DNA of 64,000 nt from the NCBI GenBank assembly GCA_947494975.1, contig CANLXA010000003.1, positions 682,001 through 746,000 of the forward strand, read 5' to 3'. Below, piece after piece: positions 1 to 16,287 of this stretch (within the stretch, counting starts at the first letter, position 1; every line of letters starts with the position of its first letter). The notes below the pieces were generated by a model. The model ran no database searches. It was not told the DNA's origin and saw nothing but the letters and a program-made list of their open reading frames with translations. The position numbers and the translations under genes are program-made. Origin of the DNA: an uncultured Roseicyclus sp. (GTDB taxonomy: Bacteria > Pseudomonadota > Alphaproteobacteria > Rhodobacterales > Rhodobacteraceae).

Positions 1-369
1 ATCCGCCTTTTCTCGGGCCTCCGCCCAGACCTCATGCGCCGACGCCCCAAGCTCCGTCTTGCGGCGCAGAAGTTCCGTCGGGATACGTTCGTGATAGGCA
101 ATCGCCTCGCGCACCTGGGCCACGATGCGCGCCTCGGGGCTGTCTTCGGGCTTGCCGGCAACCTCCGCCTCCGCCCCCTCCAGCGCGCGCTTCATCTCGT
201 CGGAGCACAGCAGGTTGCGCGCGGCCACAGCCAGGGTCGCCAATTGCTTGGCCCGCGTCTCCGCCCCGCCCTTGGGCATCATGGTACGCGCGTCCCATGA
301 CAACACCGATCCGGCATTCAGAAAATCGTTCACACGCCCCGTGGCTTCAATCAATCCGGCATAGCTCAT
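1..369 (-). CDS. Carboxypeptidase M32 (Taq-type), N-terminal part
   Basis: The frame opens with ATG at 369 on the minus strand and runs off the window, so only about 123 residues of a roughly 490-residue family are visible. The translation carries the M32 N-terminal signature, with SWDARTMMPKGGAETR at about residues 24-39 followed by a helical stretch containing QLATLAV. M32 enzymes are cytoplasmic HEXXH metallocarboxypeptidases that trim C-terminal residues; the zinc motif itself lies outside the window. The gene is divergent from the DUF4438 operon, sharing the 370-586 interval. Family assignment is fairly sure; substrate is unknown. Confidence 0.8.
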   Translation of the reverse strand, partial: MSYAGLIEATGRVNDFLNAGSVLSWDARTMMPKGGAETRAKQLATLAVAARNLLCSDEMKRALEGAEAEVAGKPEDSPEARIVAQVREAIAYHERIPTELLRRKTELGASAHEVWAEAREKAD

Positions 370-476
370 CGGTGGGCGTTCTCCCTTGAACATGTAGGGC
401 GGTCTGCAGGGCTTCGGGGGAAGCCGGCAGGCTCGGCGCAGGGCGCTTGACTATCCATTTCGCTCGTGTATCCCAT

Positions 477-586: not shown

Positions 587-1450
587 ATGCCAAGCCCGAA
601 CACCAACGAGGACGCCCTGGTCGAGATGGCCGTGGCTGGTGTGATCACCACGCCCGCCGTGCGGCCCGGCCAATACATTCCCCACCCCGATGGCCGCGCG
701 ACCGTGCTGCCCGGGATGTACGGGATCACTTATAATGTACGCTGCGGCGACCGGGCCTTTGGATGGGCCGGTGACCATGTGGAGCCCGGCGTGTCCATCG
801 ATGACGACGCCAATTCGGGCCGCCACCACGCGCTCCACTACCTCAATTGCATCGGCAACTCGGCGATGGTGACCTCTGGCATGGCAGCCGGGGCCGAGGG
901 CATCGTTGTCGGCGAACATGCGCGTATCCTGGTGCAGTTTGATCCCGACGCCCACGCCCTCATGGCGCCCGGCGACCGCATTCAGGTGATGACCAAGGGC
1001 CAGGGCCTGCGGCTCACTGATTTTCCCGATGTGGCACTCAAGAAGATGAGCCCGCGCCTATTTCATGCGCTTGGGATCACCGAAAAGGATGGTCGGTTGC
1101 ACGTGAATGTCGCGATGGAACTGCCGATCCGCATCATGGGATCGGGGGCGGAGCTGAACTCCGAATATGTGGATCAGGATCTGATGTCCGGTGACCGCGC
1201 GCTGATGGCCGAATTGGGCATCGATCAGATGCGCCTCGGCGACGTGATCGCCATCCGCCATGCGGATCACCATTGGGGCCGGTCCTATCGCGAAGGGGCC
1301 GTTTCCATCTGCCTGTGCATCCATGGCGACAGCGTGATGACAGGCCATGGCCCCGGCATCCTTACCCTGATGACCGCGCGCAACGGGGAGATCGATTTCA
1401 CTGTTGATCCCGCCGCTAACCTCGCCACCCTCCTCGATCTCGGAGCCTGA
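587..1450 (+). CDS. DUF4438 domain-containing protein (first paralogue)
   Basis: This 287-residue protein matches the DUF4438 family (N- and C-terminal domains), a structurally sampled but functionally unassigned family. Characteristic stretches are YNVRCGDRAFGWAGDH near residue 50, PDVALKKMSPRLFHAL near residue 145 and MRLGDVIAIRHADHHWG near residue 215. ATG 587 was chosen because GAAAGGA sits about 11 bases upstream; ATG 575 in the same frame is too close to that site. It has no signal peptide, so it is probably cytoplasmic. It is the first gene of an eight-gene operon and is followed one base later by a diverged paralogue. Histidine and aspartate conservation between the copies (GYG/GHG-PG near the C-terminus) suggests a catalytic or metal-binding role, which is inference. 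Confidence 0.8.
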   Translation: MPSPNTNEDALVEMAVAGVITTPAVRPGQYIPHPDGRATVLPGMYGITYNVRCGDRAFGWAGDHVEPGVSIDDDANSGRHHALHYLNCIGNSAMVTSGMAAGAEGIVVGEHARILVQFDPDAHALMAPGDRIQVMTKGQGLRLTDFPDVALKKMSPRLFHALGITEKDGRLHVNVAMELPIRIMGSGAELNSEYVDQDLMSGDRALMAELGIDQMRLGDVIAIRHADHHWGRSYREGAVSICLCIHGDSVMTGHGPGILTLMTARNGEIDFTVDPAANLATLLDLGA

Positions 1451-1451
1451 T

Positions 1452-2330
1452 ATGAGCATTGAAACCAACGCCGCCGATATCGTCACCGTCTCGGTCCTGG
1501 GCCAGGTCGCCAACCCGTCGCTCTCCGGCCTGCCCGCCGAGCCCTACCGCCTCGATGCCGATGGCAAGGCCTTCCTGTGGCCCACCTTCGGAGGCATCGT
1601 TTACAACGTCTCGGTGGGAGACAGCGCATTCGGATGGGCAGGCGATTGCATCCATCCATCGATCAGCATCGCGCATCCCGACGCCAACAAGAACCGCGGG
1701 CTGAACGTGTTCGCCTGTCTCGGGAATGAGGCGATGGTGGTCACTGGCGCGGCCAAAGGCGCAAAGGGCGTCGTTACCGGCAAATCCGGGCGGTTTTCGG
1801 ATCAGGTGATCGTGCATTTCGATATGGAAACGCGCCGCAAGATCGCCGTGGACGATCAGATCCTCGTCAAAAGCGAAGGTGTCGGACTGTCCGTTCCAAG
1901 CTGCCCCGATGTCGCGTTCAAATCCCTGTCCCCCGCCTTGTTCGACGCGCTGCCCAAGCACATGGATGGCAATGTGCTGAAGATGGGCGTCGTGGCTACC
2001 GTCCCCCCGCACATGGTCGGGGCGGGCGCGGGCCTGACCTCCGAGGGCGGCTCGCTCCACATTCAATCGACCGACCGGGCAGAGCTTGCGGCCCACGGCC
2101 TGGACCAACTCCGCCTTGGCGATGTCGTGGCCATTGAAGACACGGACAGCCGCTACAACCACGGCTACCTGCGCGGCGCGATGAGCATCGGGATCGTCGG
2201 CCAGACGGACGGCCCCCGCGCCGGATACGGGCCGGGCATGACGGTGGTGATGACGGCCCCGGCGGGCCAACTCGGTTGCTTTGGGGCGCCGGGCACAAAC
2301 ATCGCTGATCTTCTGGGGCTCTCTGCATGA
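1452..2330 (+). CDS. DUF4438 domain-containing protein (second paralogue)
   Basis: A 292-residue homologue of the preceding gene, clearly alignable over its length but diverged (I estimate about 40 percent identity by eye). Shared blocks include VGDSAFGWAGD, PDVAFKSLSPALFDAL, LDQLRLGDVVAIEDTDS and GYGPGMTVVMTAP. It starts one base after the stop of the first copy and its own stop overlaps the next ATG, so translation is coupled. Keeping two diverged copies side by side suggests a heteromeric complex or two related substrates rather than recent redundancy. Function unknown; the operon points to catabolism of an amide- or peptide-like compound. Confidence 0.8.
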   Translation: MSIETNAADIVTVSVLGQVANPSLSGLPAEPYRLDADGKAFLWPTFGGIVYNVSVGDSAFGWAGDCIHPSISIAHPDANKNRGLNVFACLGNEAMVVTGAAKGAKGVVTGKSGRFSDQVIVHFDMETRRKIAVDDQILVKSEGVGLSVPSCPDVAFKSLSPALFDALPKHMDGNVLKMGVVATVPPHMVGAGAGLTSEGGSLHIQSTDRAELAAHGLDQLRLGDVVAIEDTDSRYNHGYLRGAMSIGIVGQTDGPRAGYGPGMTVVMTAPAGQLGCFGAPGTNIADLLGLSA

Positions 2331-3415
2331 CCCAAGCCATCCCGATGACCAATGTTGACCGCGCGCAGCTCCGCACCTTTGTGGCGGAGGGGTTCGAGGT
2401 GCTCGGTCTCACCTCGGAAGACGCGGGCATTTTCGCGGATGCCCTGATCTTCTCCGAACTGCGGTTTCATCCCGGTCAGGGCCAAGGGGTCGCCCGCCTG
2501 CGGCGATATCACGAGCGCATCGGCAAGGGTGAGGTGAACACCCGTGCCCCGTGGAGCATCGTCAAGGAGGGCCCCGCGCTGGCGCTGGTGGACGCCCATA
2601 ATGGTATCGGCACGGTCGCGGCCGCCAAGGCGATGCGGCTGGCAATCAAGAAGGCGAAAGAGGGCGGGATCGGCACCGTCATCGTGCGCAATTCCACCCA
2701 TTACGGTTCCAGTGCTGTCCATGCCTGCCAGGCGCTGGATCATGGCTGCATCGGCATAGCCTTCACCAATGCGGGCCCTGAAATGGCGCCCTGGGGCGGG
2801 CGCGACGGCGTGACGGGCACCAACCCCTGGTCCATCGCCGCACCATCCGACCAGGGTTTTCCAACCGTTCTCGACATCGCGATCACCACCGCCGGCAAAG
2901 GCATGATGAACTGGCTGATCCGCGAGGGGAAGAAGATGCCGCTGGACTGGGCGCTCACGCCCGATGGGAAGGAAACAGATGATCCCGCCGCCGCGCTGAA
3001 AGGACCGCTCCTAGGGATCGGCGGGCATAAGGGCTACGGGCTGGCCTTCATGACAGAGGCCTTGACGGGTGTTCTGTCGGGCGGTGGCTTCGGCCTGACG
3101 CCCTATTCCGATCCGATGAAGCTCGACGTGAGCCACTACTTCCAAGCCATTGATATTTCATGGTTCATGGATGTGGCCGACTATGAATCCCGCATGGGTG
3201 AATTCGTCCAGATGGCCAAGACCCGCGCCTTGCGGCCCGGTTTTGACGAAATCCTGGTTCCGGGGGAACAGGAGGCCAGACGCACCGCCGCCAAGGCGGA
3301 ACACGGCGTGCCCATCGACGATGTGGTGCTAGCCGACATGCAGGATCTGGGCCGCGAACTCGGCCTGAAAACCGTGCTTGAGGGAACCGGCCCCCATACC
3401 GGCGACACATTGTGA
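2327..3415 (+). CDS. Ldh_2 (malate/L-lactate dehydrogenase) family NAD(P)-dependent oxidoreductase
   Basis: The 362-residue protein belongs to the Ldh_2/MDH2 family, which reduces or oxidises 2-oxo/2-hydroxy acids and cyclic imines (ureidoglycolate, sulfolactate, diketogulonate, piperideine-2-carboxylate). Visible motifs are RNSTHYGSSAVHA with the conserved catalytic histidine near residue 125, the GGRDGVTGTNPWSIAAP nucleotide-binding stretch near residue 160, and GGHKGYGLAFMTEALTGVLSG near residue 230. Length is normal. Its ATGA start overlaps the stop of the upstream DUF4438 gene. In this operon it could interconvert an alpha-hydroxy acid or imino acid with the keto acid handled by the downstream aminotransferase; that link is inference. 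Confidence 0.85.
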   Translation: MTQAIPMTNVDRAQLRTFVAEGFEVLGLTSEDAGIFADALIFSELRFHPGQGQGVARLRRYHERIGKGEVNTRAPWSIVKEGPALALVDAHNGIGTVAAAKAMRLAIKKAKEGGIGTVIVRNSTHYGSSAVHACQALDHGCIGIAFTNAGPEMAPWGGRDGVTGTNPWSIAAPSDQGFPTVLDIAITTAGKGMMNWLIREGKKMPLDWALTPDGKETDDPAAALKGPLLGIGGHKGYGLAFMTEALTGVLSGGGFGLTPYSDPMKLDVSHYFQAIDISWFMDVADYESRMGEFVQMAKTRALRPGFDEILVPGEQEARRTAAKAEHGVPIDDVVLADMQDLGRELGLKTVLEGTGPHTGDTL

Positions 3416-4575
3416 GCGACGGCCCGCACCCCCTTGATGCGGGCTTTTTCGCCCGTGCGCGAGACCGGTTGCGTAGCCGCGCGGAGGCGGCGGGGCTGGA
3501 CGGATTGCTGCTCCTGCGTGCACCCAATCTGGCCTATGCGACGGGCCTTTTCTTGTCCGCCAATGAGCGACCGATGGGTGTGTGGCTGCCGGTCGATGGC
3601 GAGCCGATCCTCATGCTGCCGGGGCTGGAGCGGGAGAATGCCGCGGGCACCGGCCTGAGCGATTCTCGCTTCTATGAAGAATTTCCCGGCGAAGTGCCTC
3701 CCGTTCTTTGGATGCTGGATCAGATCGGGCATCAACGCGTTGGCATCGACGCGCTGGACGCCGCCCTTCTCGACGCCGTGCGCGACAAGGTGTCGGCGCT
3801 CGACCTGACCGATCACGCGATGGCCGCCCGCACGATCAAGGAACCCGAAGAGATCGCCCTGACGGTTGAGGCCGCGTCTTTCGCCGATCTGTTCCTGACC
3901 CACCTGCACGCCGCGGCGGGTGATATCATCACGGCTGGCGGGACGGAGGCCGATCTGATGGCCGATGCGATGGCCCATGCCCGCAGCGCGCTGCTGGCCA
4001 AACACAAGCAGGCCTTTGCCGGCACACCCATGGGCATCACGGCCAGCGTGCATTCCGGCCCTCGCGCCGCTCTGCCCCATGGCGCTGTTCTGGAACGCGT
4101 CCCGCAGCCCGGTGAGACGTTGATTGCAGGCATAGGCGCCAGTATTGGCGGCTATCATGCCGAAAGCGGCGTGACGCTGATCGTGGGCGAGATCAGCGGC
4201 CAGCAGCGCCGGATCATGGAAGCGATGGAGGCTTGCAATGACGCCGCCATCGCTGCCTGCGCGGCGCGCCGGACATGTACCGAGGCCAACAATGCGGCAT
4301 TGGATGCGTTGCGAGACGCTGGCCTCGGCGACGCCATCCGCCACCGGATTGGTCACGGGATGGGTCTTGAGGGGCACGAGGCCCCGTGGCTCGCACCCGG
4401 CGACCCAACGCAGATCCAGACCCACATGATTTTCTCCAACGAGCCGGGCGTTTATCGCCCCGACCTGGACGGTTACCGCACCATCAACACCATGATCGTC
4501 ACCGAAAACGGCGTGGATGTTCCATCCCGTTTTCAAGCCAACACCCCCATCGACGCCCGCACCATCGCCATCTGA
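3412..4575 (+). CDS. M24 (creatinase/aminopeptidase P fold) hydrolase with substituted metal ligands
   Basis: The 387-residue protein has an N-terminal creatinase-type domain (about 1-135) and a C-terminal pita-bread domain. It starts at GTG 3412 in a GTGA overlap with the previous gene. Aligning with PepP-type M24 enzymes, the histidine (GHGMGLEGHE) and one glutamate (SNEPGVY) are kept. The two aspartates are not: the region reads LIAGIGASIGGYHAESG instead of the ID.G...GY..D.TRT pattern. The last glutamate of RIED is asparagine in RTINT. Three of five metal ligands are therefore changed. Creatinase, which works without metal, is the known precedent, so this is more likely an amidinohydrolase-type or other metal-free hydrolase than a prolidase. 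Confidence 0.8.
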   Translation: MSDGPHPLDAGFFARARDRLRSRAEAAGLDGLLLLRAPNLAYATGLFLSANERPMGVWLPVDGEPILMLPGLERENAAGTGLSDSRFYEEFPGEVPPVLWMLDQIGHQRVGIDALDAALLDAVRDKVSALDLTDHAMAARTIKEPEEIALTVEAASFADLFLTHLHAAAGDIITAGGTEADLMADAMAHARSALLAKHKQAFAGTPMGITASVHSGPRAALPHGAVLERVPQPGETLIAGIGASIGGYHAESGVTLIVGEISGQQRRIMEAMEACNDAAIAACAARRTCTEANNAALDALRDAGLGDAIRHRIGHGMGLEGHEAPWLAPGDPTQIQTHMIFSNEPGVYRPDLDGYRTINTMIVTENGVDVPSRFQANTPIDARTIAI

Positions 4576-4587
4576 GGAGCCTTCAAG

Positions 4588-5823
4588 ATGCCCGAACCAG
4601 CCGCCTGGAAATATCAGAAGATCACCAAACCGATGTTTGAGGCCGAGGCCGTGGATTGCGTCTTCTACGGGCGTGTCGTTACCTGCGTCGGCGACGAGGT
4701 GATCGAAGACGGCTATGTACATCTGAAGGATGGGAAGATTGCCGCCGTTGGTGCGCGATCTGACATGAACGTCGTCATGGAAGATTTTGATATCATTGAC
4801 ACCGATGGCAAGACACTGATGCCCGGCATGATGAACAGCCACGCGCATCTGTCGTGGGACGGTATCCATGAACTGAGCCAGCAGTCGATGTTCGACCCGC
4901 CCGAAATCCGCGCCTACAAGGCCGCCGGCAACATGCTCAAATCTCTGCGCGCGGGCATCACGCTGGTGCGCGATCTGGGGGTCCATGACGCCAACCTCTT
5001 CACCAAGCAGGCCGTGGCGCAGGGGATCTTTCCGGGCCCCCGCCTGCTGGTCTCTGGCGAGAGCATCATCCAGACCGGCGGGCACACCTATTGGGTCTGC
5101 CGAGAAGCGTCGGGCGCCGATGAGATGCGCCGCGCCGTACGCGATCAGGTCAAGGGCGGGGCCGATCTGATCAAGATCATGGCTTGCCACGACACGCTGG
5201 AATTCACCGATGAAGAATTGCACGCCGTCATCGACGAAGCGCATCGTAACCGTCTGCCGATCACGGCCCATGCCACCTATAACGACTGCATCGCGCGGGT
5301 CGCGGAGTTTGGCGTGGATTGTGTGGAGCATGGCGGGTCGATGACAGATGAGACGATCCAGATCCTGCTCGACAAGAAATTGCCTATCGTCACGACATTT
5401 TCCGCGCTGGTGATTCAGGCAAACGAAGAGATCGCGCGCGCCTTCGGCATACCCGAATGGAAGATCGAGGAGCGCAAGCGCGCTGTGGCCGATAAGTCCC
5501 GCTTCGACGGTCTGGTCCGCGCCGCGAAGGCGGGCGTGCCGATCATCTTCGGCACCGACGCGGGCAGCCCGGCGGTGGAGCACGACCGGATCGTGCCGGA
5601 ACTCGGTTTCATGGTGGAGGTGGGCGTCTGCCCCGACAATCTCGACGCCTTGCGCGCCATCACGGCGCGGGCGGCCACGCTCAACGGGTTCGGCGACACG
5701 CTCGGGACGCTGGAGGCCGGGAAACTGGCCGACATGATCGTGGTCGCCGGCAAGCCAGATCAGGACCTTACGGCACTGGAGAAGGTCGAGATGACCTTCA
5801 TTGACGGCAAAAGGATGCACTGA
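4588..5823 (+). CDS. Metal-dependent amidohydrolase (prolidase/imidazolonepropionase-like)
   Basis: A 411-residue amidohydrolase-superfamily enzyme with an intact binuclear centre: HAH in MMNSHAHLSWDG (about 85), the presumptive carboxylated lysine in DLIKIMACHD (about 195), histidines in ITAHATYND and VEHGG, and the aspartate in FGTDAGSP (about 315). These features match the Xaa-Pro dipeptidase-like and N-acyl/imide hydrolase branches, which cut C-N bonds using Zn. The start follows GAGGAG by eight bases. No signal peptide. It is the fifth gene of the operon and, with the second amidohydrolase at 8436, implies two successive C-N hydrolyses in the pathway. Exact substrate cannot be named. Confidence 0.85.
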   Translation: MPEPAAWKYQKITKPMFEAEAVDCVFYGRVVTCVGDEVIEDGYVHLKDGKIAAVGARSDMNVVMEDFDIIDTDGKTLMPGMMNSHAHLSWDGIHELSQQSMFDPPEIRAYKAAGNMLKSLRAGITLVRDLGVHDANLFTKQAVAQGIFPGPRLLVSGESIIQTGGHTYWVCREASGADEMRRAVRDQVKGGADLIKIMACHDTLEFTDEELHAVIDEAHRNRLPITAHATYNDCIARVAEFGVDCVEHGGSMTDETIQILLDKKLPIVTTFSALVIQANEEIARAFGIPEWKIEERKRAVADKSRFDGLVRAAKAGVPIIFGTDAGSPAVEHDRIVPELGFMVEVGVCPDNLDALRAITARAATLNGFGDTLGTLEAGKLADMIVVAGKPDQDLTALEKVEMTFIDGKRMH

Positions 5824-5824
5824 C

Positions 5825-7012
5825 ATGACCCAATCGCTTTTGCTGCAACGCACGGCGCCCCGCATCGTCGACGAGGACGGATCGTTTCGCACCAGAATGC
5901 TGGAGATCGCCGCCGGCCTCGACAATGTCATCGCGCTGGGGCGCGGCGACCCGGACTTTCACACACCCGCCCATGTGGTAGAGGCCGCGAAGGCCGCGCT
6001 GGACGACAACCAGCACCACTATACCGGGCCCACCGGGCTGCCCCAGCTTCGGCAGGCGATCTGCGATAACCTGAAGGCGGAATACGGGCTGGATTACACG
6101 GCGGACGAGATCATCGTCACGGCGGGCGTGCAGGAAAGCATCATGCTGTGCATGTTGGGTCTGGTGCATCCGGGCGACGAGGTGCTGATTACCTCGCCTC
6201 GCTTCACCACCTATGACACCGCCGTGCACCTGTGCGGTGGCGTGCCGATCCCGGTTCCGACATACCAGAAGGACGACTTCGCGCTCGATGTCGCAGAAAT
6301 CGAGAAACGGATCACGCCGAAGACGCGGATGTTCGTTCTCGTCTCTCCCAACAACCCCACGGGGGCGGTGACGCCACCCGATGTGATCCGGCAGATCGCC
6401 GATCTGGCGGTCAAACACGATATTCTGGTCATCGCCGACGAGATCTATGCCAAGCTGATCTATCCACCCCACGAGCACCTGTCGCTGGCGACGCTTCCGG
6501 GGATGAAGGAGCGGACCATCACGCTCAACGGCTTTTCCAAGACCTACGCCATGACCGGCTGGCGCGTGGGCTACATGGCTGCACCCGCCGACTTCGTGGA
6601 AAAACTGACAGAACCGCGCCACACGCTGTCGATCAACACCTGCACCGTATCGCAAATCGCGGCACTTGCCGCGCTGACCGGCCCGCAGGACGAGATTGAG
6701 GCGACGTTCGCCGACTACGCGAGGCGCCGGGATTACCTGATGGAGGCACTGAGTGATGCGGGCCTCAGCTACGGTGCACCCGGTGGCGCTTTCTACATCT
6801 ACACCAATATCTCTTCGACCGGCATGATGGCCAAGGATTTCTGCGAAACCCTGTTGCGCGACGCTGGCGTGATGGTCTTTCCCGGTGACATGTTCGGGGA
6901 ACCGGACAGCGATTTCATCCGCATCTCCTACCTGCAACCGCTACCGGTGATTGAAGAGGCGATGGCGCGGATCAAGGGGTTCATCGCCAGCCATAAGGGG
7001 GCGGCGGCATGA
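5825..7012 (+). CDS. Class I/II PLP-dependent aminotransferase
   Basis: The 395-residue protein has fold-type I aminotransferase landmarks: SPNNPTGAV (about 180), ADEIYAKLIY with the PLP aspartate (about 210), the PLP-binding lysine in NGFSKTYAMTGWRVGY (about 240) and the C-terminal FIRISYLQP arginine (about 375). It resembles aspartate/aromatic-type aminotransferases of about 390 residues. The start at 5825 lies one base after the previous stop, with AAAAGGA upstream. Cytoplasmic. In the operon it would remove or add an amino group on an amino acid released by the hydrolases, pairing with the Ldh_2 dehydrogenase; the amino acid involved is unknown. Confidence 0.87.
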   Translation: MTQSLLLQRTAPRIVDEDGSFRTRMLEIAAGLDNVIALGRGDPDFHTPAHVVEAAKAALDDNQHHYTGPTGLPQLRQAICDNLKAEYGLDYTADEIIVTAGVQESIMLCMLGLVHPGDEVLITSPRFTTYDTAVHLCGGVPIPVPTYQKDDFALDVAEIEKRITPKTRMFVLVSPNNPTGAVTPPDVIRQIADLAVKHDILVIADEIYAKLIYPPHEHLSLATLPGMKERTITLNGFSKTYAMTGWRVGYMAAPADFVEKLTEPRHTLSINTCTVSQIAALAALTGPQDEIEATFADYARRRDYLMEALSDAGLSYGAPGGAFYIYTNISSTGMMAKDFCETLLRDAGVMVFPGDMFGEPDSDFIRISYLQPLPVIEEAMARIKGFIASHKGAAA

Positions 7013-8439
7013 GCGACATGACCCCCAATCCAGAGGAGAAATTCGTCGGCATCCAGGTCTCGCCCATCAGTTTCATAGATGAAGGCGTGGAGACCGTGCT
7101 CGACACGCTCAAGGATCGCGTCGGCGTCAACGTCCTGATGCTCGGCACCGTGTCCTGGCTTGGCCTGAAGACCGGGCGCTCCATCGCGCACGATCTGGAC
7201 GGCTGGCCAGATCACGGGGTGCCCGAGCCGTTCACGATGAAGGGCGGGGCCTATTTCAACCCCGATCCGCGTTATTACACCAAGACGCTGATCAAGGAGT
7301 TCCGCGCGACCGATAAAGAGATGGAGGGGATTGATATCCTCGATCTGGTGATCCCCGAAGCCCATAAGCGCGACATGAAAGTCTATGTCGAACTGATGGA
7401 GCCGTTCTTCAAATATGCCGGCCACGGCTCCGCCAGCGCCGTCGATATCCCGAACCTCGCCACGTGCATGGAGGTCGACGTGTTCGGCCGCCGCAAGGAC
7501 GAACCCAGCACCTCGAACCCCGATTACCGCAACTGGATGCATGCCATCATCGAGGATCAGGTCCGCAATTGCGATCTCGACGGGATCATGTGGTGCAATG
7601 AGCGGAACTCACCGCTGGACCAGATGATGCAGGGCCAGGCGCCCGGCGATTTCTCGGAGGCCGCGCGGGCCGAGGCTATCGCCCGCGGCATCGATGTGGA
7701 AGCCTGCCGCCGCGCCTGCATCGCGATGTATGGCTTCATGCAGGATGCGCTTGGCGGCAAGGAATTTGACGACGGCGCGTTTATCACGTTCATCCGCACG
7801 CTGCTGGAGCATCCCGAGGTTCTAATCTGGGAGCGGTTCTGGCTGGAACGGAACAAGGATCTGGACCGGGAGCTTTATGGGCTGGTGAAATGGTGCAAGC
7901 CCGACTTGCCCTTTGGGCTGAACATCTGGAACCGAAATCATTTCAACATCTTCCGCCGCGCTCAATGGCCGTGGGACGAACAGACGATGTATGCCGATTG
8001 GGTCAAACCGATCACTTATCAGCATCAATCCGGTGAAATCTGGCACAAGGAATTCGGCTTCTTCCAGAAGACGATCCTGCGCGACTTCGACCCTGCCGCT
8101 GCGATGAAGGTGCTCGACGGCATTCTGGGCATTCGGGGCTCGGATCTGGACAGCGTGGTTCAGGACGGCCTTGATCCGGATACCTACGTTTATGGCCAAT
8201 GCGCCGAGGCGTTGAAGGGGGTACACGGCAAGGCCAAGGTCTTCATGGGCCTTGGCATCGACGCGCCACGAGTCCGCGCGGATCAGGCGAAATGCACGCC
8301 CGATATCGCCTATCGCTCGGTCATGGCGACCTACCGCGCGGGCGGACATGGGGTAGTGTTGTCGCCCAATTACGCATCCATGAAGCTGACCAATCTCGAC
8401 GGTGTAGCCAAGGCGCTCACCGAGTTGGGCCTGAAATGA
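7009..8439 (+). CDS. Uncharacterised TIM-barrel-like (glycoside-hydrolase-like) protein
   Basis: This 476-residue protein is not one I can assign to a named enzyme. Its layout resembles (beta/alpha)8 glycoside-hydrolase-like proteins: an early QVSPISFIDEG strand, VNVLMLGTVSW, RDMKVYVELMEPFFK, then NCDLDGIMWCNERNSP where an Asp-x-Ile-x-x-x-x-x-Glu arrangement could supply acidic catalytic residues, and later DLPFGLNIWNRNHFN and HGVVLSPNYASMKLTN. There is no signal peptide, so it acts in the cytoplasm. Its ATGA start overlaps the aminotransferase stop and its own stop overlaps the next ATG, so it belongs to the pathway. Several cysteines and tryptophans cluster around residues 195-200. Function unknown. 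Confidence 0.75.
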   Translation: MSDMTPNPEEKFVGIQVSPISFIDEGVETVLDTLKDRVGVNVLMLGTVSWLGLKTGRSIAHDLDGWPDHGVPEPFTMKGGAYFNPDPRYYTKTLIKEFRATDKEMEGIDILDLVIPEAHKRDMKVYVELMEPFFKYAGHGSASAVDIPNLATCMEVDVFGRRKDEPSTSNPDYRNWMHAIIEDQVRNCDLDGIMWCNERNSPLDQMMQGQAPGDFSEAARAEAIARGIDVEACRRACIAMYGFMQDALGGKEFDDGAFITFIRTLLEHPEVLIWERFWLERNKDLDRELYGLVKWCKPDLPFGLNIWNRNHFNIFRRAQWPWDEQTMYADWVKPITYQHQSGEIWHKEFGFFQKTILRDFDPAAAMKVLDGILGIRGSDLDSVVQDGLDPDTYVYGQCAEALKGVHGKAKVFMGLGIDAPRVRADQAKCTPDIAYRSVMATYRAGGHGVVLSPNYASMKLTNLDGVAKALTELGLK

Positions 8440-9812
8440 GCAGGCTGGATACGTTGATCGCGGGCGGAGAGGTTCTGTTGCCCGACGGTTTGGCGCAGCT
8501 TGATCTGGGTCTTACGGATGGCAAGGTGGCAGGCATCTATGCGCCGGGCAGCGCACCGGTGGCCAAAGAAACGATCAGCGCAATAGGCAAAACCGTTCTG
8601 CCCGGCATCGTCGATATCCATTTCCATGTCCGCGCGCCCGCCTATCCCGAACGCGGCACCGTCCAATCCGAAACCCGTGCCGCAGCGGCAGGGGGCATCA
8701 CGACCCTGTTCGAGATGCCGATCTCCAAACCCTGCTGCTCCACGCCCGAAGAGCTGGCGCGCCGCCGCGATCATTTTGCCGAAAACGCCGTGATCGACTT
8801 CGCGCTTTATGCGGCCCCGGGCGACCTGACCGAGGCGAGCCGGGACAAGATGATGGATCTGGGCTGCATCGCGTGGAAGATCTTCACCACACCCTCCCCG
8901 CCCGGGCGCGCCGATGAATTCGAAGGGCTCGCCTTTCCCGATGAGGCCGATCAGCTGCAGGCTTTGCGGTTGCTGGCGGGTACCGGCCTGCCCATCGTCG
9001 TTCATGCCGAAAGCGCGCAGTTGCTGGCCCATTTTGAGGATGCGGCCAAGGCGCTCGACCCCGCTGACGCTGCGACCCACGGTAAATCCCGCCCCGCCAT
9101 CTGCGAATCCGTCGCCGTGGCCAAGCTCCTGACGATGAACATGGAGGCGCAGGCGAAACTCCACATCGCCCATGTCACCAGCGCCGAAACTGTCGCCGTG
9201 CTGCGCGCCTTCGCCGGAACTTCGGACTTCACGGCAGAGACCTGCCCGCAATACCTGTTCGCCACTGAGGATGACGTGGCGAAGGCCGGGATCTACGCCA
9301 AGGTCAACCCGCCCATCCGCCATCGAGCCGATCAGGACGCCCTGTGGCAGGCCATTGAAGATGGTGTGATCACCTACGTCACGACCGACCACGCGCCGTT
9401 CGCCAAGGCAGAAAAACAGGCGGCAGAGGGCGACTTTCCCGGCGCGCCGCCCGGCGTTCCCGGCATCGAGTTCATCCTGCCCGCCATGCTCGACGCCGTA
9501 TCGCGCGGTCGCCTGACCCTCAAGGGGGCCCACGATCTGATCTGCGCCAACGGCGCCAAACGCTATGGCCTCTACCCGTCCAAAGGCGCGCTTCTGCCGG
9601 GCAGCCAGGCGGACGTGACGATTGTGGATCTGAAAGGTGAAACCATGTTCAGCCCCGAAACGATGCACACCCATGCCCGCGAGGTCGCGCATCTGTTCTA
9701 CGGGCGCATTCTGCGCGGCAAGGTGTGTGAAACGATCCTTGCGGGACGCAGCGTGTTCCGGGACGGCGAGGTGATAGGCGCGCCGGGCGGCGGACGATAC
9801 GTCCGGCCATAG
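8436..9812 (+). CDS. Dihydroorotase/allantoinase/hydantoinase-family amidohydrolase
   Basis: A 458-residue cyclic-amidohydrolase with all metal-site residues: DIHFHVR (about 55), the carboxylated lysine in CIAWKIFTTPS (about 150), VHAES (about 190), LHIAHVTS (about 245) and the catalytic aspartate in TTDHAPF (about 320). This family opens cyclic amides such as dihydroorotate, allantoin and hydantoins. Length and a C-terminal GSQADVTIVDLKGE metal-independent domain favour allantoinase/hydantoinase over PyrC. It is the last gene of the operon, ATGA-coupled to the TIM-barrel gene. A cyclic amide or imide is therefore a likely intermediate; that is inference. Confidence 0.85.
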   Translation: MSRLDTLIAGGEVLLPDGLAQLDLGLTDGKVAGIYAPGSAPVAKETISAIGKTVLPGIVDIHFHVRAPAYPERGTVQSETRAAAAGGITTLFEMPISKPCCSTPEELARRRDHFAENAVIDFALYAAPGDLTEASRDKMMDLGCIAWKIFTTPSPPGRADEFEGLAFPDEADQLQALRLLAGTGLPIVVHAESAQLLAHFEDAAKALDPADAATHGKSRPAICESVAVAKLLTMNMEAQAKLHIAHVTSAETVAVLRAFAGTSDFTAETCPQYLFATEDDVAKAGIYAKVNPPIRHRADQDALWQAIEDGVITYVTTDHAPFAKAEKQAAEGDFPGAPPGVPGIEFILPAMLDAVSRGRLTLKGAHDLICANGAKRYGLYPSKGALLPGSQADVTIVDLKGETMFSPETMHTHAREVAHLFYGRILRGKVCETILAGRSVFRDGEVIGAPGGGRYVRP

Positions 9813-10101: not shown

Positions 10102-11025
10102 CTAGCCGTTTTCCTTCAACCGCGGATCTAGGAAATCTCTCAGCCAGTCGCCGATGATGTTGAAGGCCAGCACCGTGAAGACAATCGCAAGGCCCGGGAA
10201 GACGGCGAGCCACCATTTGTTCGACAGCAGGTGATCGCGGCTTTCCGACAACATGCTGCCCCAGGTCGGCACATCGGGCGGCACGCCCAGGCCGAGGAAG
10301 GACAGGGCCGCCTCCGAAAGGATCACACCGGCCACGTTGAACGAGGCAATGACGGTCAGCGGCGCGATGATGTTGGGCAGGATCGTTCGGAAGAGGATGG
10401 AAAACGTGCTATCCCCCATGGCGCGGGCGGCCTCGACATATTCCTTTTCGCGCAGGGACAGGGTCTGCGCCCGTACGATCCGCGCATAGGTGATCCATTG
10501 CCCGATCCCAAGGACGAGGATCATGTTCATCAGGCCAGGGCCGAGCACGACGAGGAACATGATCGCCAGCAGGATGAAGGGAAAGGCCAGCTGGATATCG
10601 CCCAGACGCATGATCACATCATCGACCCAGCCGCCAAAGTAACCCGAGACGAGCCCTGCGATGGTGCCAAGGGTACCGCCCACCGCAATCGAGGCGACAC
10701 CCACCAGCAACGAAACCCGCGCACCATAGAGCAGGCGCGAGAAGACATCGCGGCCCAACTGGTCCGAGCCGAGCCAGTAGGTGAGATCTCCGGCCCCCGC
10801 CTCACCCGGTTCCAAAAGACGCATCATGATATTCTGCCGGTTGGGGTCAAACGGCGCGAGCCACGGGCCGAAGATCGCCACGAAGGTCACAATCAGAAGG
10901 ATGATCATCCCGATCAGCGCCCAACGGCTGGCGACCATGCTTTGCATGGCGCGCCGAAACTCTCGCTTTCGGTGGGACACCGGCGGAGCAATGGCCGGTT
11001 GCGATGCGGGGGTGGTTTCAACCAT
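10102..11025 (-). CDS. Dpp-type peptide/solute ABC transporter permease (DppC-like)
   Basis: A 307-residue inner-membrane permease with about six hydrophobic segments. The first is near residue 40 and is followed by a periplasmic loop carrying the DppC/OppC signature WLGSDQLGRDVFSRLLYGAR (about 85-104). The cytoplasmic EAA loop reads EYVEAARAMGDSTFSILFRTI (about 195-215) and contacts the ATPases. The C-terminus keeps GLGVPPDVPTWGSML and ends LRDFLDPRLKENG, all normal for the family. It lies 11 bases downstream of the DppB-like gene in the same minus-strand unit. With the divergent ATPase genes and the binding protein at 16288 it makes a complete importer. Confidence 0.9.
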   Translation of the reverse strand: MVETTPASQPAIAPPVSHRKREFRRAMQSMVASRWALIGMIILLIVTFVAIFGPWLAPFDPNRQNIMMRLLEPGEAGAGDLTYWLGSDQLGRDVFSRLLYGARVSLLVGVASIAVGGTLGTIAGLVSGYFGGWVDDVIMRLGDIQLAFPFILLAIMFLVVLGPGLMNMILVLGIGQWITYARIVRAQTLSLREKEYVEAARAMGDSTFSILFRTILPNIIAPLTVIASFNVAGVILSEAALSFLGLGVPPDVPTWGSMLSESRDHLLSNKWWLAVFPGLAIVFTVLAFNIIGDWLRDFLDPRLKENG

Positions 11026-11036
11026 CGTGCAGGCCC

Positions 11037-12011
11037 CTATAGCTTCACGCGCGGATCAAGGCGCGCGTAGACCAGGTCGACGATCAGGTTGAGGAGAATG
11101 AAGATCAGCGCCAGCAAGATGACCGACGCCTGAACCACCGGAATGTCACGCTGATTGATCGCGTTGAACACAAGCCGCCCGATGCCGGGATAGGAAAACA
11201 CCGTCTCCACCACCACGACGCCGCCCAGAAGGAAGCCAAACTCCAGCCCGATCATGGTGACAACCGGCAGCCACGCGTTCCGCATGGCGTGATGGATCAC
11301 CACCCGGCGCTCCGAGATCCCCTTGGAGCGCGCCGTGCGCACATAATCCTGCTGCAACACTTCCAACATCGAGGATCGGATCAGCCGCGCATTGCGCGCC
11401 AGTGTATAGGTGCCCACCGCGAAGGCGGGCATCACCATGTAGTACATCGACCGGGGCAGATTGCTGAACGCAGTCTGGAAATCTCCATCGAACAGCGGTT
11501 CCAGAAACGGAACATGGCCCGAGATCGGGAACCAGCGCAGGTAGAGGCCGAAGAACATGATCATCATGATCCCCATCCAGAAGTTCGGGATCGATTGGCC
11601 CAACATCGCAAAGGTCATGATGCCACCATCGGCGGGTTTGCCACGGTTCAGCGCGGCATAGATGCCAAGCGGGATCGAAAGGCCGATGGCCAGCACGAGG
11701 GAAAAGAACGTGAGTTCGATCGTGGCGGGCATCGCCTCCAGCACCACATCCATGGCGGGTTGGCGGTAGCTCAGCGAATTGCCGAAATCGCCCTGCAACG
11801 CGTTCCAGACATAGCTGAGATACTGGATATGAAGCGGGCGATCAAAACCCAGGGCGATCCGCGCGGCCTCGATCTCTTCGGTGCTCGCATTTTCGGACAC
11901 GAACAGATAGGTCGGGTCGCCACCGATCTGAAGCGACACGAAGCTGATCAGGGTCACTCCGATGAGCACGATGATGCTTTGCAGCAGGCGCCTTACAAGG
12001 AATGTCCACAT
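11037..12011 (-). CDS. Dpp-type peptide/solute ABC transporter permease (DppB-like)
   Basis: The 324-residue product begins MWTFLVRRLLQSIIVLIGVTLI, a first membrane helix typical of DppB/OppB, and continues with about five more. The family's FDRPLHIQYLSYVWNALQGDFGNS stretch (split around residues 70-93), the EAA-loop YVRTARSKGISERRVVIHHAMRNA region and the C-terminal VYARLDPRVKL are all present. ATG 12011 was chosen over an upstream ATG at 12071 because the intervening residues are basic and unlike the family. It leads the minus-strand permease pair and is served by the promoter/operator at 12184-12211. Substrate probably a peptide- or amide-like solute. Confidence 0.9.
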   Translation of the reverse strand: MWTFLVRRLLQSIIVLIGVTLISFVSLQIGGDPTYLFVSENASTEEIEAARIALGFDRPLHIQYLSYVWNALQGDFGNSLSYRQPAMDVVLEAMPATIELTFFSLVLAIGLSIPLGIYAALNRGKPADGGIMTFAMLGQSIPNFWMGIMMIMFFGLYLRWFPISGHVPFLEPLFDGDFQTAFSNLPRSMYYMVMPAFAVGTYTLARNARLIRSSMLEVLQQDYVRTARSKGISERRVVIHHAMRNAWLPVVTMIGLEFGFLLGGVVVVETVFSYPGIGRLVFNAINQRDIPVVQASVILLALIFILLNLIVDLVYARLDPRVKL

Positions 12012-12183: not shown

Positions 12184-12211
12184 GATAGATTGTCGACAGT
12201 AGAACAACCAA
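12184..12211 (-). promoter_or_regulatory. Promoter of dppBC with embedded TGTCGACA operator
   Basis: On the minus strand TTGGTT (12211-12206) and TCTATC (12189-12184) are separated by 16 bases. The palindrome TGTCGACA (12198-12191) occupies the spacer and ends one base before the -10, exactly as in the promoter at 477-505. The matched architecture is the main support, since the -10 itself is weak. The rest of the 12012-12369 divergent interval contains a CGCGGC/GCCGCG hairpin (12267-12284) without a T-run and a 24-codon upstream frame. Confidence 0.5.
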
Positions 12212-12305: not shown

Positions 12306-12380
12306 ATGAAAATAGCCGCGCTTCGTGGACGACACAGCCCATGGCGCCCCGCTGACAGGGGATTTGGCCGTGCCATCTGA
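12306..12380 (+). other. Possible leader peptide upstream of the dppD-like gene
   Basis: A 24-codon frame starts at ATG 12306, eight bases after an excellent Shine-Dalgarno GGAAAGG (12291-12297), and stops with TGA at 12378-12380, eleven bases into the overlapping start region of the ATPase gene (GTG 12370). The product MKIAALRGRHSPW... is basic and unlike any family I know. It may couple translation to the ATPase gene or be a remnant of an earlier N-terminus. Codon-level evidence is too short to decide. Confidence 0.3.
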
Positions 12381-13386
12381 AACCGCCCCGCTTTTGCAGG
12401 TCGAGAACCTGCAAACGACGTTTGAACTGTCAAAAAAACTGTCGGTTTGCGCCGTGGATGGCGTGAGCTTCGAGGTTCATGCGGGCGAAACCCTCGCGAT
12501 TGTGGGCGAAAGCGGGTCTGGCAAATCGGTCACGAGCCTGTCGATCATGGGGCTTCTGCCGAAAGATGTGGGGCGGGTCAGCGGCGGCAGCATCACGTTG
12601 CAGGGCCGTGACATCACCCGTTTGAGCGATACCGAGATGCGCGATATTCGTGGCAAGGATATCGGCATGATTTTTCAGGAGCCGATGACGAGCCTCAATC
12701 CCGTACATACGGTGGGTCAGCAGATCGCCGAAATGGTGATCCGGCATCAGAACCTGTCAAACGCCAAGGCCCGAGCCCGGGCAATCGAGATGCTGGACCT
12801 TGTCGGCATCCCCGAACCGACCGCCCGCGTGGATACCTATCCGCACGAGATGTCCGGCGGCATGCGACAGCGCGCGATGATCGCCATGGCGCTGGCCTGC
12901 AAGCCGCGCATCCTGATCGCCGACGAGCCCACAACCGCGCTCGACGTCACAATCCAGGCCCAGATGCTGGAGCTGATGCAGGAGCTGCAGGACAAGCTCG
13001 GCATGGCCATCATCTTCATCACCCATGATCTGGGCGTGGTGGCCGAAGTCGCCGACCGGGTGGTGGTGATGTATGCCGCACAGGTGGTGGAAACCGGCCC
13101 GGTGGAAGACATATTCGCCAACCCGCGGATGCCTTATACGGCGGGCCTAATGAATTCGATCCCGCGGCTCGGCTCTTCGATCAACAAGACGCGGCTTGAG
13201 GCGATCCCCGGCACCGTACCTGCCCTCACCAGCCTGCCCGCCGGGTGCCGATTCCACCCCAGATGCTCCTTTGCCACGGATGTCTGCAAAGTCGGTAACC
13301 CGGTGCTGGAGGAAGCAAGCCCCGGCCACATGATCCGCTGCACGCGCTGGCGCGAGTTGACCCTTGGCGAAAGGCGGGCGTCATGA
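12370..13386 (+). CDS. Dpp-type ABC transporter ATP-binding protein (DppD-like)
   Basis: The protein has Walker A GESGSGKS (about 52-59), the Q-loop [11 protein letters not shown], the ABC signature EMSGGMRQR (about 155), Walker [13 protein letters not shown] and the H-loop THDLG. A C-terminal oligopeptide-transporter domain carries the cysteines of [15 protein letters not shown], typical of DppD/OppD. I prefer GTG 12370, seven bases after AGGGGA, giving 338 residues. GTG 12325 in the same frame gives 353 residues but lacks a ribosome-binding site. It is divergent from dppBC and its stop overlaps the next start. Confidence 0.88.
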
Positions 13387-14351
13387 CGGCTCCGCTCCTC
13401 GAGGTCGACAACCTCAAGAAATACTTCCCGATCCATGGCGGCGTGCTGCAACGCGTGGTCAACAATGTGAAGGCGGTCAACGACGTCTCGTTCGATATCA
13501 ATGCCGGTGAGGTTGTGGGGCTGGTCGGCGAAAGCGGCTCGGGCAAGACGACCGTGGGGCGCACCCTGTTGCGCCTGGAACAGGCGACATCCGGCAATGT
13601 GCGGTTCGGCGGCGTCGATGTGATGGGCCTGAACGCCACCGATATGCGCAGCTACCGCAAGCGGATGCAGATCATCTTTCAGGATCCCTATGCCAGCCTG
13701 AACCCGCGCGAGAAGGTCCGCGAGGTGCTGACCCATCCCTTGCGCCTGCATCGGATCGGCACCGCATCCGAGCATGAGGATCGCGCGGCGTCGCTGCTGG
13801 AGAAGGTCGGCCTGTCACGCGACCATCTGGACAGGTTTCCCCACGAGTTTTCCGGCGGTCAACGTCAGCGCATCGGCATCGCGCGGGCGCTGGCGGTGGA
13901 GCCCGAATTCATCGTCGCCGACGAGCCCGTCTCAGCGCTTGATGTGTCGATCCAGGCGCAGGTGATCAACCTTCTGGAAGACCTCAAGAACGATCTCGAC
14001 CTGACGATGCTGTTCATCGCCCATGATCTGGGCGTGGTGGAGCATATCTGCGACCGGGTGATCGTGATGTATCTGGGCCGGGTGATGGAAATCGCGTCGG
14101 CCGCCGACCTCTACGCCCGACCGAACCACCCCTACACGCAAGCGCTCCTGTCCGCCGTCCCGATCCCGGAGCCTGGCAAACGACGCAAGCGCACGGTTCT
14201 GAAGGGGGATATCCCCAGCCCGATCAATCCCCCGTCCGGCTGCGTGTTCCGCACCCGCTGCCCAATGGCAACCGAGGACTGCGCCAAAGTGGTGCCGGAG
14301 CTGAAATCGGTCGGCGACGGGCATACCAGCGCGTGCATTCACACGACTTGA
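13383..14351 (+). CDS. Dpp-type ABC transporter ATP-binding protein (DppF-like)
   Basis: A 322-residue ATPase: Walker A GESGSGKT (about 44-51), Q-loop IIFQDPYASLNPRE, signature EFSGGQRQRIGIARAL (about 155-170), Walker B FIVADEPVSALDV and switch histidine AHDLGVVEH. The C-terminal region GCVFRTRCPMATEDC is the cysteine-bearing tail of the oligopeptide branch. Translation starts in an ATGA overlap with the DppD-like gene, so the two ATPases are made together and should form the heterodimeric motor of the importer. The gene is followed by 155 bases before the acetyltransferase. Confidence 0.9.
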   Translation: MTAPLLEVDNLKKYFPIHGGVLQRVVNNVKAVNDVSFDINAGEVVGLVGESGSGKTTVGRTLLRLEQATSGNVRFGGVDVMGLNATDMRSYRKRMQIIFQDPYASLNPREKVREVLTHPLRLHRIGTASEHEDRAASLLEKVGLSRDHLDRFPHEFSGGQRQRIGIARALAVEPEFIVADEPVSALDVSIQAQVINLLEDLKNDLDLTMLFIAHDLGVVEHICDRVIVMYLGRVMEIASAADLYARPNHPYTQALLSAVPIPEPGKRRKRTVLKGDIPSPINPPSGCVFRTRCPMATEDCAKVVPELKSVGDGHTSACIHTT

Positions 14352-14497
14352 GCGGGGTGTGTGCGGAAGACGGTACCTGCTGAGTGGGCCTGCGAGACGG
14401 ATATTAACGATCGGTCTGCGGGATATTGATGTCGGTCGTGGTCCCCGTCATCGGCATCCGCTGATGCCACATTGCCGACAGCCCAAAAACTGGGCAA

Positions 14498-14505
14498 TGT
14501 CGACA
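14498..14505. promoter_or_regulatory. TGTCGACA palindrome at the acetyltransferase start
   Basis: The 8-base palindrome, in the context GCAA-TGTCGACA-TG, ends one base before the GTG start of the AAC(6')-like gene. A near copy, TGCCGACA, lies about 25 bases upstream, separated by a GCCCA/TGGGC hairpin with loop AAAAC (14481-14495). The A/T-flanked core matches the sites at 491 and 15257. A bound repressor here could block initiation of translation or transcription; no good -10/-35 was identified for this gene. Confidence 0.4.
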
Positions 14506-14506
14506 T

Positions 14507-14953
14507 GTGCCAATACGGATCGCTACTCTCTCGGATATCCAAGCTTGGGTCCCGCTGCGTGCCGAGCTATGGGGCGACACGTCGCTCGACGAACACCGCG
14601 TCGAAGCCGAGGCGATGCTCGCCAAATCCCCGGATGAAGGCATCGTCTTCCTGGATGTCGTGGATGGAGTTGGCATCCGCGCCTTCGCCGAGGCCGCCCT
14701 GCGCCATGATCACGTCAACGGATGCGAGACGTCGCCGGTTGCTTTCCTTGAAGGGATATACGTCAGCCCCGATGTCCAAGGCTCAGGCATTGGCAGGTTG
14801 CTCTTGGGATCGGTCCAGTCCTGGGCCCGTGAAAAGGGCTGCTCGGAGCTCGCATCCGACGCCGATATCGACAACGTGGCAAGCCGTGCCTTTCACATGG
14901 CCCTGGGTTTCGAAGAAACCCAACGTGTCATCTATTTCCGAAAAGCGCTCTAG
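14507..14953 (+). CDS. Aminoglycoside 6'-N-acetyltransferase-like GNAT protein
   Basis: The 148-residue protein closely follows the AAC(6')-I pattern: RAELWGDTSLDEH near residue 20, AEAALRHDHVNGCETSPV near residue 62, FLEGIYVSPDVQGSGIGRLLL (about 80-100) with the acetyl-CoA-binding loop QGSGIG, ELASDADIDN and the C-terminal GFEETQRVIYFRKAL. Family members transfer acetyl from acetyl-CoA to the 6'-amine of aminoglycosides in the cytoplasm. The only in-frame start is GTG 14507, without a convincing ribosome-binding site. Its position among transporter and gntR genes, next to a TGTCGACA site, suggests it might instead acetylate an amine in the imported substrate. Resistance activity is a family-based expectation, not demonstrated. 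Confidence 0.8.
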   Translation: MPIRIATLSDIQAWVPLRAELWGDTSLDEHRVEAEAMLAKSPDEGIVFLDVVDGVGIRAFAEAALRHDHVNGCETSPVAFLEGIYVSPDVQGSGIGRLLLGSVQSWAREKGCSELASDADIDNVASRAFHMALGFEETQRVIYFRKAL

Positions 14954-15170: not shown

Positions 15171-15256
15171 GCTGCCGTGCTCCCTGCATAGCGCACCCGT
15201 CCGCCCATGAATCCTTGACAAGGGTTTTCCGCCTGCCGCATTGTCCACCTATGAAT

Positions 15257-15264
15257 TGTCGACA
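15257..15264. promoter_or_regulatory. TGTCGACA palindrome upstream of gntR (probable autoregulatory site)
   Basis: The palindrome sits in the context GAAT-TGTCGACA-TTCC, so the symmetry extends to GAATTGTCGACATTC with one mismatch. A possible promoter with TTGACA at 15215-15220 would place its -10 around 15239 and its start near 15250, putting the palindrome just downstream of the start site. FCD-type GntR regulators commonly repress their own genes and those of the linked pathway. The gene itself begins at 15454, leaving a leader of about 200 bases. Confidence 0.45.
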
Positions 15265-15453
15265 TTCCACAATTGCGGGGACGGCTCCGCAAACGGCGAC
15301 AAATGACACGGGTTGTATCCAATCGACCGGCCTCTTGCCGATTGGTGTTGCGCGATTTGCAACTGACACCGCTATGTATGCGCAAATTTCTGTTGGGCGG
15401 CCTTGCGCGGCGGTTCGGCAGGCCTTTTGCGAATGCTTCGGAGGACAGCCCGC

Positions 15454-16149
15454 ATGATCACCCCCAAACCCGCCCTCGCCCATCCCATGCCTGATGATAT
15501 CGCGCCGATCGAGAACGTGCCCCTGCGGGTCCAGGTGGCCGACCGCCTGCGCAGTGCGATCCTGAGCGGGCGCCTGCGGCCCGGCACCGGCCTCGTGGAA
15601 ACGGCGCTCGCCGAACAGATGAACGTCAGCCGCGCCCCGATCCGCGAGGCGATTCAGATCCTCGAAAATGACGGGTTGGTCGAGACGATTGCCTACAAGG
15701 GCAAGCGCGTGAAGCCGCTGACGGCGCGCGAAGTGGCGGAAACCTATTCGCTGCGTGAAGTGTTCGAGGTCATGGCCGTGCGGCGGATCATGGAAAACGG
15801 CGCCCCGCTCGATGCGCTGTATCAGCATTGCGACGAAATGAATGCCGCCGCGAAAGCCGATGATTTTGCGGCCCTTGTCGCCGCTGACGAAGCCTTTCAC
15901 CACGCCCTGATCCGCCTGGCCGATCACGACCTGCTGCTGGCATCTTGGAAAAACCTCTACCTGCGCATCCACCAGATCATGGCGTTGCGCAACCGCGACG
16001 AACGCAACCTCGCCGAGGTTGCCGGAAATCACCCACCCATCGTCCAGGCCCTGGCCGATGGCGATCGCGACCGCGCGATCAAGCTTATCTCTGACCACAC
16101 GCGCGCGTTGGCCGCCTTCGATCCGGCGACCATCGTGCAAGCCCTGTGA
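15454..16149 (+). CDS. GntR-family transcriptional regulator, FCD subfamily
   Basis: A 231-residue regulator with an N-terminal winged helix (about 20-85: VPLRVQVADRLRSAILSG, LAEQMNVSRAPIREAIQIL, LVETIAYKGKRV) and a C-terminal all-helical FCD effector domain. The FCD metal-site residues are visible as DEAFHHAL, GNHPPIVQAL and SDHTRAL. The ATG at 15454 follows GGAGG by nine bases; an upstream ATG at 15403 lacks this and adds a basic unlike extension. Regulators of this class bind short palindromes and respond to small carboxylates or amino acids. TGTCGACA sites at 491, 12191, 14498 and 15257 make it the likely regulator of the catabolic operon and importer. That assignment is inference. Confidence 0.85.
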   Translation: MITPKPALAHPMPDDIAPIENVPLRVQVADRLRSAILSGRLRPGTGLVETALAEQMNVSRAPIREAIQILENDGLVETIAYKGKRVKPLTAREVAETYSLREVFEVMAVRRIMENGAPLDALYQHCDEMNAAAKADDFAALVAADEAFHHALIRLADHDLLLASWKNLYLRIHQIMALRNRDERNLAEVAGNHPPIVQALADGDRDRAIKLISDHTRALAAFDPATIVQAL

Positions 16150-16287
16150 CGACCGATCACCTGATAAAGGGGCCATTGCGCCCCCGGACGGCGTTCGGTT
16201 CCTCGCAACCCCGGGACTGACAAAACAACGCAGAAAAAGACCAAACCCAGTTCCTCGACGTCGATCCAACAGGTGAAAGGAAAGCCA

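Follow-up and report, generated by a model that had tools for sequence, protein, structure and literature searches.

We examined a 64,000-nucleotide stretch of an uncultured Roseicyclus sp. (contig CANLXA010000003.1, positions 682,001 to 746,000; hereafter the window), in which an earlier note had proposed an undescribed catabolic gene cluster containing two DUF4438 proteins. Eight consecutive open reading frames (ORFs) occupy positions 587 to 9812 of the plus strand. They encode the DUF4438 proteins D1 (587 to 1450; PF14505, 2.3e-50; PF20999, 7e-45) and D2 (1452 to 2330, with its ATG at 1452; PF14505, 1.4e-50); an NAD(P)-dependent reductase/dehydrogenase of the Ldh_2 family (2327 to 3415; PF02615, 1.2e-105); a protein of the M24 (creatinase/prolidase) fold with a GTG start (3412 to 4575; PF00557, 2.5e-37); the amidohydrolase AH1 (4588 to 5823); a class I/II aminotransferase, AT (5825 to 7012; PF00155, 3.1e-69); a protein with a predicted glycoside hydrolase fold, here called the barrel (7009 to 8439); and AH2, a hydantoinase/allantoinase-like cyclic amidohydrolase (8436 to 9812). 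Pfam names seven of the eight (DUF4438 N and C domains for D1 and D2, Ldh_2, Peptidase_M24 with Creatinase_N, Amidohydro_1 twice, and Aminotran_1_2). The genes are as tightly coupled as the earlier note described, with 4-base overlaps at 2327, 3412, 7009, and 8436 and remaining gaps of 1, 12, and 1 bases. Among 15 Rhodobacterales-type loci with a barrel gene, 12 carry the complete block in the same order, and the other three (L009, L065, and L067) are truncated where their contigs end.

This block forms one arm of a two-sided island of some two dozen neighboring genes. The divergent arm begins in the window with an M32 carboxypeptidase gene (1 to 393, minus strand; PF02074, 9e-173) that continues past the left edge (L069:8843-10393). 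Pfam and NCBIfam models place a second aminotransferase, a VOC protein, an AstE/AspA-type protein, PuuE-like and AllA-like proteins, an epimerase-type SDR, and a Gfo/Idh/MocA dehydrogenase beyond it on the same strand. An additional ORF of this arm was assigned to Gfo/Idh/MocA from the Pfam result for a relative in L026 (44%), and another is presumably an SDR. Farther left are an M20 dipeptidase-type gene, a gene for an AH1-like amidohydrolase, an ORF judged M14-like from a comparison by eye with M14 relatives, and a transporter whose binding protein matches branched-chain amino acid models below cutoff. To the right, the Dpp-type importer and GntR regulator mentioned in the earlier note are present. 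Genes that we take to encode dppC-like (10102 to 11025) and dppB-like (11037 to 12011) permeases lie on the minus strand, and those presumed to encode dppD-like (12325 to 13386) and dppF-like (13383 to 14351) ATPases lie on the plus strand; all four have homologues in relatives. They are followed on the plus strand by genes for a GntR/FCD regulator (15403 to 16149; PF00392 and PF07729) and an SBP_bac_5 solute-binding protein (16273 to 17841; PF00496, 1.1e-67).

A scan for the barrel recovered 66 loci, read with flanks of up to 10 kb; many contigs end sooner, so the absence of a gene from these loci is not proof of its loss. By title, the loci belong to Rhodobacterales, other Alphaproteobacteria, Gemmatimonadota, Chloroflexota, Deinococcota, Acidobacteriota, and others. 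The partners found were AH1 (59 loci), AT (50), dppC (45), dppB (43), Gfo/Idh (36), AH2 (22), VOC (20), M32 (18), M24 (15), Ldh_2 (14), D1 (13), and D2 (13). The Gfo/Idh, PuuE, and AllA genes went unseen in the 15 Rhodobacterales loci because they lie beyond the flank, and longer stretches show them. The widest core is the barrel, AH1, the aminotransferase, and the Dpp importer, which recur together in several phyla. Distances among barrels correlated with those among their partners, with coefficients of 0.71 for AH1 (54 loci), 0.92 for AT (45), 0.96 for Gfo/Idh (36), 0.90 for AH2 (22), and 0.93 for dppC (31). Within the family of the window, the barrel was found in 7 of 248 genomes and DUF4438 in the same 7; within its genus, both were found in the same 8 of 13. 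The independent scattering in relatives that the earlier note had named as grounds against a common pathway was therefore not seen, and this co-occurrence and the conserved gene order led us to reject a chance neighborhood. The patchy joint presence of the two families suggests that the island may be transferred horizontally as a unit. Plasmid carriage was considered and rejected, since PLSDB holds barrel matches in 2 records only, both distant (∼31% identity), and no match to D1. No match to D1, D2, or the barrel was found in PHROGs.

A palindrome scan with TGTCGACA identified candidate operators in the divergent M32/D1 promoter (489 to 500; AATGTCGACAAT), between dppB and dppD (12189 to 12200), and before the GntR gene (15255 to 15266). 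The first was present in all 21 Rhodobacterales-type loci scanned, the second in all 9 scanned loci with divergent dppB and dppD, and the third in 7 loci, the window being included in each count and some loci being the same genome reached twice (e.g., L010 and L084). The conservation of TGTCGACA at these three places ties the importer to the enzymes, and from these sequences both arms, the importer, and GntR likely form one regulon. The sites are operator-like, and the GntR protein would be the candidate to bind them. A TGTCGACA site at G000:C3:671606 falls within the M20 ORF and was excluded from the promoter sites; copies also occur inside genes in L012, L015, L020, and L082. A fourth site of this type in the window (14496 to 14507) runs into the first base of a short ORF (14507 to 14953), which we take to encode a GNAT acetyltransferase-like protein.

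Both PF14505 and PF20999 were matched above the Pfam cutoffs by D1 and D2, which on alignment (39% identity) are distinct, diverged tandem paralogues. D1 keeps the motif GDHVEPGVS found in single-copy DUF4438 relatives, and D2 mostly carries DC and then HP at this motif. The structure model of D1 (predicted local distance difference test [pLDDT], 88) had TM1086 as its sole significant match in the PDB (3dcl and 3n99; 39 to 40% identity, TM-score of ∼0.85), and by sequence D1 matched TM1086 at ∼5e-60. TM1086 was deposited as uncharacterized, and the island proteins differ from it in forming a tandem diverged pair. DUF4438 crystal structures have existed since 2008, and a search of open-licence papers turned up nothing on the function of the family in the text available; one of them, a crystallization methods paper (PMC2661377), may name the TM1086 protein. 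The island gives a functional setting both to DUF4438 and to the unnamed barrel family.

We read 12 DUF4438 pairs outside Rhodobacterales, of which L134 to L136 look closely related; the pair genomes G459 and G547 were left out. An Ldh_2 or 2-hydroxyacid dehydrogenase gene adjoins nine of them (L019, L123, L124, L125, L129, L134 to L136, and L138) and is missing beside three (L122, L126, and L128). A reductase gene beside most pairs suggests an oxo or hydroxy acid as the substrate. In nine non-Rhodobacterales genomes with both barrel and DUF4438, island-type genes lie near DUF4438 in all except L127: most of the island in L124 and L129, and parts of it in L019, L122, L123, L125, L126, and L128. 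The single-copy relatives of Chloroflexota (10 of the 16 carriers) have different gene surroundings from the island. In five such loci (L130 to L133 and L137), no island enzyme besides DUF4438 was matched, apart from weak matches to the generic ABC, enolase superfamily, and aldo-keto reductase queries. Several further features were seen around DUF4438 genes. Similar amidohydrolase-like ORFs sharing AHAGHG adjoin the pair in Methylobacterium (L126:10833-12359) and Anaerolineales (L128:7901-9334) and are perhaps a further pathway member. In three Chloroflexota genomes that have no barrel (L134, L135, and L136), a 2-hydroxyacid dehydrogenase gene and several genes of the Gfo/Idh type accompany D1 and D2; L134 and L136 each have two ORFs that we presume to be TldD/TldE-like. 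In another Chloroflexota genome, whose DUF4438 gene is single copy, an ORF ∼6 kb from that gene resembles ureidoglycolate lyase (AllA) by eye (L132:2468-3127).

The earlier note had called the barrel unrecognized. This stands for sequence families, as it had no Pfam or NCBIfam match (E value of 0.001) and no PDB sequence match (E value of 1), yet its fold could be recognized from a structure model (pLDDT, 89.2). Cwp19, PgaB domains, and GH42 and GH164 enzymes ranked high in Foldseek (1.8e-11 and weaker; TM-scores by query of ∼0.4 to 0.5). As modeled, the barrel has a glycoside hydrolase-type TIM fold and is distantly GHL10-like. The GHL10 profile (PF02638) was matched weakly by 42 of 45 family members at an E value of ≤10 (best, 4.7e-6), but the window barrel scored 15.1 bits against a cutoff of 27.9, and three distant homologues (32 to 33% identity) also stayed below it (11.5, 24.8, and 19.3 bits). 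All 45 barrel sequences compared have N197 and E198 where strand 4 ends, and E198 is also kept in the three distant homologues. In clan GH-A enzymes the acid/base lies at this position. The barrel thus shares its fold and the N-E pair with GHL10-type, Cwp19, PgaB-domain, and GH42 barrels, whereas its second catalytic residue is not assigned.

Two of the three distant homologues adjoin TonB receptor, SusD-type, and glycerate kinase genes. On a Parabacteroides distasonis plasmid (L150:11857-14890), two adjacent homologues have these genes and an SLC13 permease gene alongside. Glycerate was accordingly considered as a product and dropped, as the kinase gene had no homologue in the fetched loci. 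A Granulicella plasmid, pACIX901 (L151:9848-11392), carries a distant homologue among M1 peptidase, aminopeptidase P-type, proline racemase-family, and GH127 genes.

Both amidohydrolases are complete, as had been proposed. AH1, assigned by Pfam, alignment, and structure database matches, keeps all six residues of its binuclear metal site in 58 of 58 homologues, and in AH2 (HxH, Lys, His, His, and Asp) four positions are kept in 22 of 22 sequences and two in 21 of 22, one sequence being gapped. AH1 is nearest to amidohydrolases that cleave amides, among them Arg-carboxypeptidase and ochratoxinase (3mtw, 3be7, and 4c5y), with which it aligns; its best NCBIfam model, Xaa-Pro dipeptidase, was matched at 204.7 bits, far below the cutoff of 500. 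The M24 protein, described earlier as metal-free looking, is so at three of five ligands. Alignment to reference structures puts G240, E251, and I358 at positions of metal ligands and keeps H315 and E344, in 13 of 13 orthologues; the ligands of M24 metallopeptidases are, we assume, D, D, H, E, and E, and the island protein lacks this full set. Its nearest structures are prolidase and aminopeptidase P.

We consider that these genes form a coregulated, horizontally spread, undescribed catabolic island whose imported substrate is a peptide- or N-acyl-amino-acid-like conjugate that may be glycosylated and may carry a cyclic amide or ureido group, and we give this reading a probability of about 60%. 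The import, C-N cleavage, and deamination or reduction proposed earlier agree with it in that the gene families fit one catabolic unit with an importer and a regulator; the compound and its reactions can be sketched as follows. The solute-binding protein and Dpp transporter would import the conjugate, and AH1 together with the carboxypeptidase- or deacylase-type enzymes (M32, AstE-like, M14-like, and M20) would cut its amide bonds. The barrel may take off a sugar-like part, which the Gfo/Idh/MocA enzymes could then oxidize. AH2 and the PuuE-like and AllA-like proteins would open and split the cyclic amide or ureide part, and the metal-poor M24 protein may cleave another C-N bond. The aminotransferases would yield a 2-oxo acid for reduction by the Ldh_2 enzyme, and the D1/D2 pair would act on the oxo or hydroxy acid from these steps. 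The GntR protein would bind TGTCGACA and release the genes once the substrate is present.

Several observations weigh against this reading. The correlations of barrel with partner distances (r of 0.71 to 0.96) still contain shared species history. Of 25 barrel genomes searched, 15 had no DUF4438 and 10 had it (one of them, G284, from Rhodobacterales), and among 301 Chloroflexota genomes, 16 had DUF4438 and 1 of these 16 the barrel (15 did not), genome completeness being unstated in both sets. The palindrome WTGTCGACAW occurs at 25 places genome-wide, compared to 1 for a reversed control; such sites may therefore serve other regulators as well. Outside Rhodobacterales, a site near D1 was found in L124 and not in L019, L122, L125, L126, or L129. 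Finally, no second catalytic acid could be identified in the barrel, as two distant homologues have N in place of D418. The suggestion that the pathway is built around DUF4438 is not supported: D1 and D2 occur within the flanks of 13 of the 66 barrel loci, most of the barrel genomes searched have no DUF4438, and the unit is far larger than eight genes.

Because carriers of the core are found among Alphaproteobacteria, Gemmatimonadota, Chloroflexota, Deinococcota, and Acidobacteriota, the substrate may be a common natural compound. We only tentatively extend this to a widespread mobile system for an abundant, unrecognized compound (a glycosylated, ureido- or imide-bearing amino acid conjugate), in which a new GHL10-related family would cut the sugar side and D1/D2 would be a heteromeric enzyme, with a fold that has no functionally characterized relative, for the oxo or hydroxy acid that the aminotransferase and the Ldh_2 enzyme make. 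Since one island supplies both a binding protein and a candidate operator, the substrate question is directly testable.

The earlier note knew of no named pathway with this gene set, and none was found here: no tested island protein reached a curated NCBIfam cutoff (M32 and the Dpp proteins were left out), and the open-licence papers searched named no such pathway in their available text. Among the alternatives, peptide scavenging, e.g., of proline- or hydroxyproline-rich peptides, with the barrel dealing with the sugar on glycosylated hydroxyproline or serine, is the strongest, and we consider it unlikely. It would account for the prolidase-like affinities of AH1 and M24 and for the M32, M20, and M14-like (by eye) genes. 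The Granulicella barrel homologue (31% identity) lies between M1 peptidase/peptidylprolyl isomerase and aminopeptidase P-type genes, with proline racemase-family, DHDPS-family, aldehyde dehydrogenase, and GH127 genes nearby, neighbors that could be read as hydroxyproline catabolism. However, the proline racemase, FAD oxidoreductase, and M1 proteins of that locus matched nothing in the fetched loci, and its DHDPS (4 loci), aldehyde dehydrogenase (2), and aminopeptidase P (1) proteins had only weak ones (23 to 28% identity). Further, M24 has lost metal ligands, and plain peptides would not need cyclic amidohydrolases, PuuE- and AllA-like proteins, or DUF4438.

A cyclic amidine, guanidine, or hydantoin-type substrate, on which M24 would act like creatinase or ectoine hydrolase and the protein of the AstE type like DoeB, seems less probable still. 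Creatinase and ectoine hydrolase are metal-free M24-fold enzymes, and the island M24 is metal-poor. Hydantoinase B homologues occur in 7 of the 66 barrel loci, and an ORF near AH2 in L138 is presumably related to N-carbamoyl-amino-acid hydrolases. Ectoine degradation likewise combines an M24-fold protein with one of the AstE/AspA type, but M24 scored just 38.4 and 34.1 bits on the ectoine hydrolase (DoeA) models (cutoffs, 575 and 613) and the AstE-like protein 101.8 of the 402.7 bits needed for DoeB, and we rejected the ectoine pathway on these scores. The glycoside hydrolase-fold barrel and the several carboxypeptidases would also be left unexplained. Mycosporine-type amino acids were considered as substrates from the habitats and are not claimed, the available text of the open-licence papers searched holding nothing that bears on them.

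The island shares enzyme families with allantoin and ureidoglycolate catabolism, but its copies are divergent. AH2 scored 281 bits on allantoinase AllB (TIGR03178; cutoff, 357.85), the PuuE-like protein 357 to 358 bits on PuuE (TIGR03212; cutoff, 424.6), and the AllA-like protein 68 to 69.5 bits, which passes the PF04115 cutoff in Pfam (23) and misses all NCBIfam ureidoglycolate lyase cutoffs; Ldh_2 had matches to ureidoglycolate dehydrogenase below cutoff. An allantoin or ureide (purine) pathway, or a working duplicate of one, is nevertheless very improbable, because a better-matching operon sits elsewhere in the genome, where contig C2 carries PuuE (513.7 bits, above cutoff) and AllA (182 bits) together. 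A third ORF beside them presumably encodes an HIU-hydrolase-like protein.

After the solute-binding protein gene, minus-strand ORFs between 18034 and 20122 encode what we take to be quinone oxidoreductase-like and hydroxypyruvate isomerase-like proteins. Among the compared loci, a relative of the former was found in L003 only.

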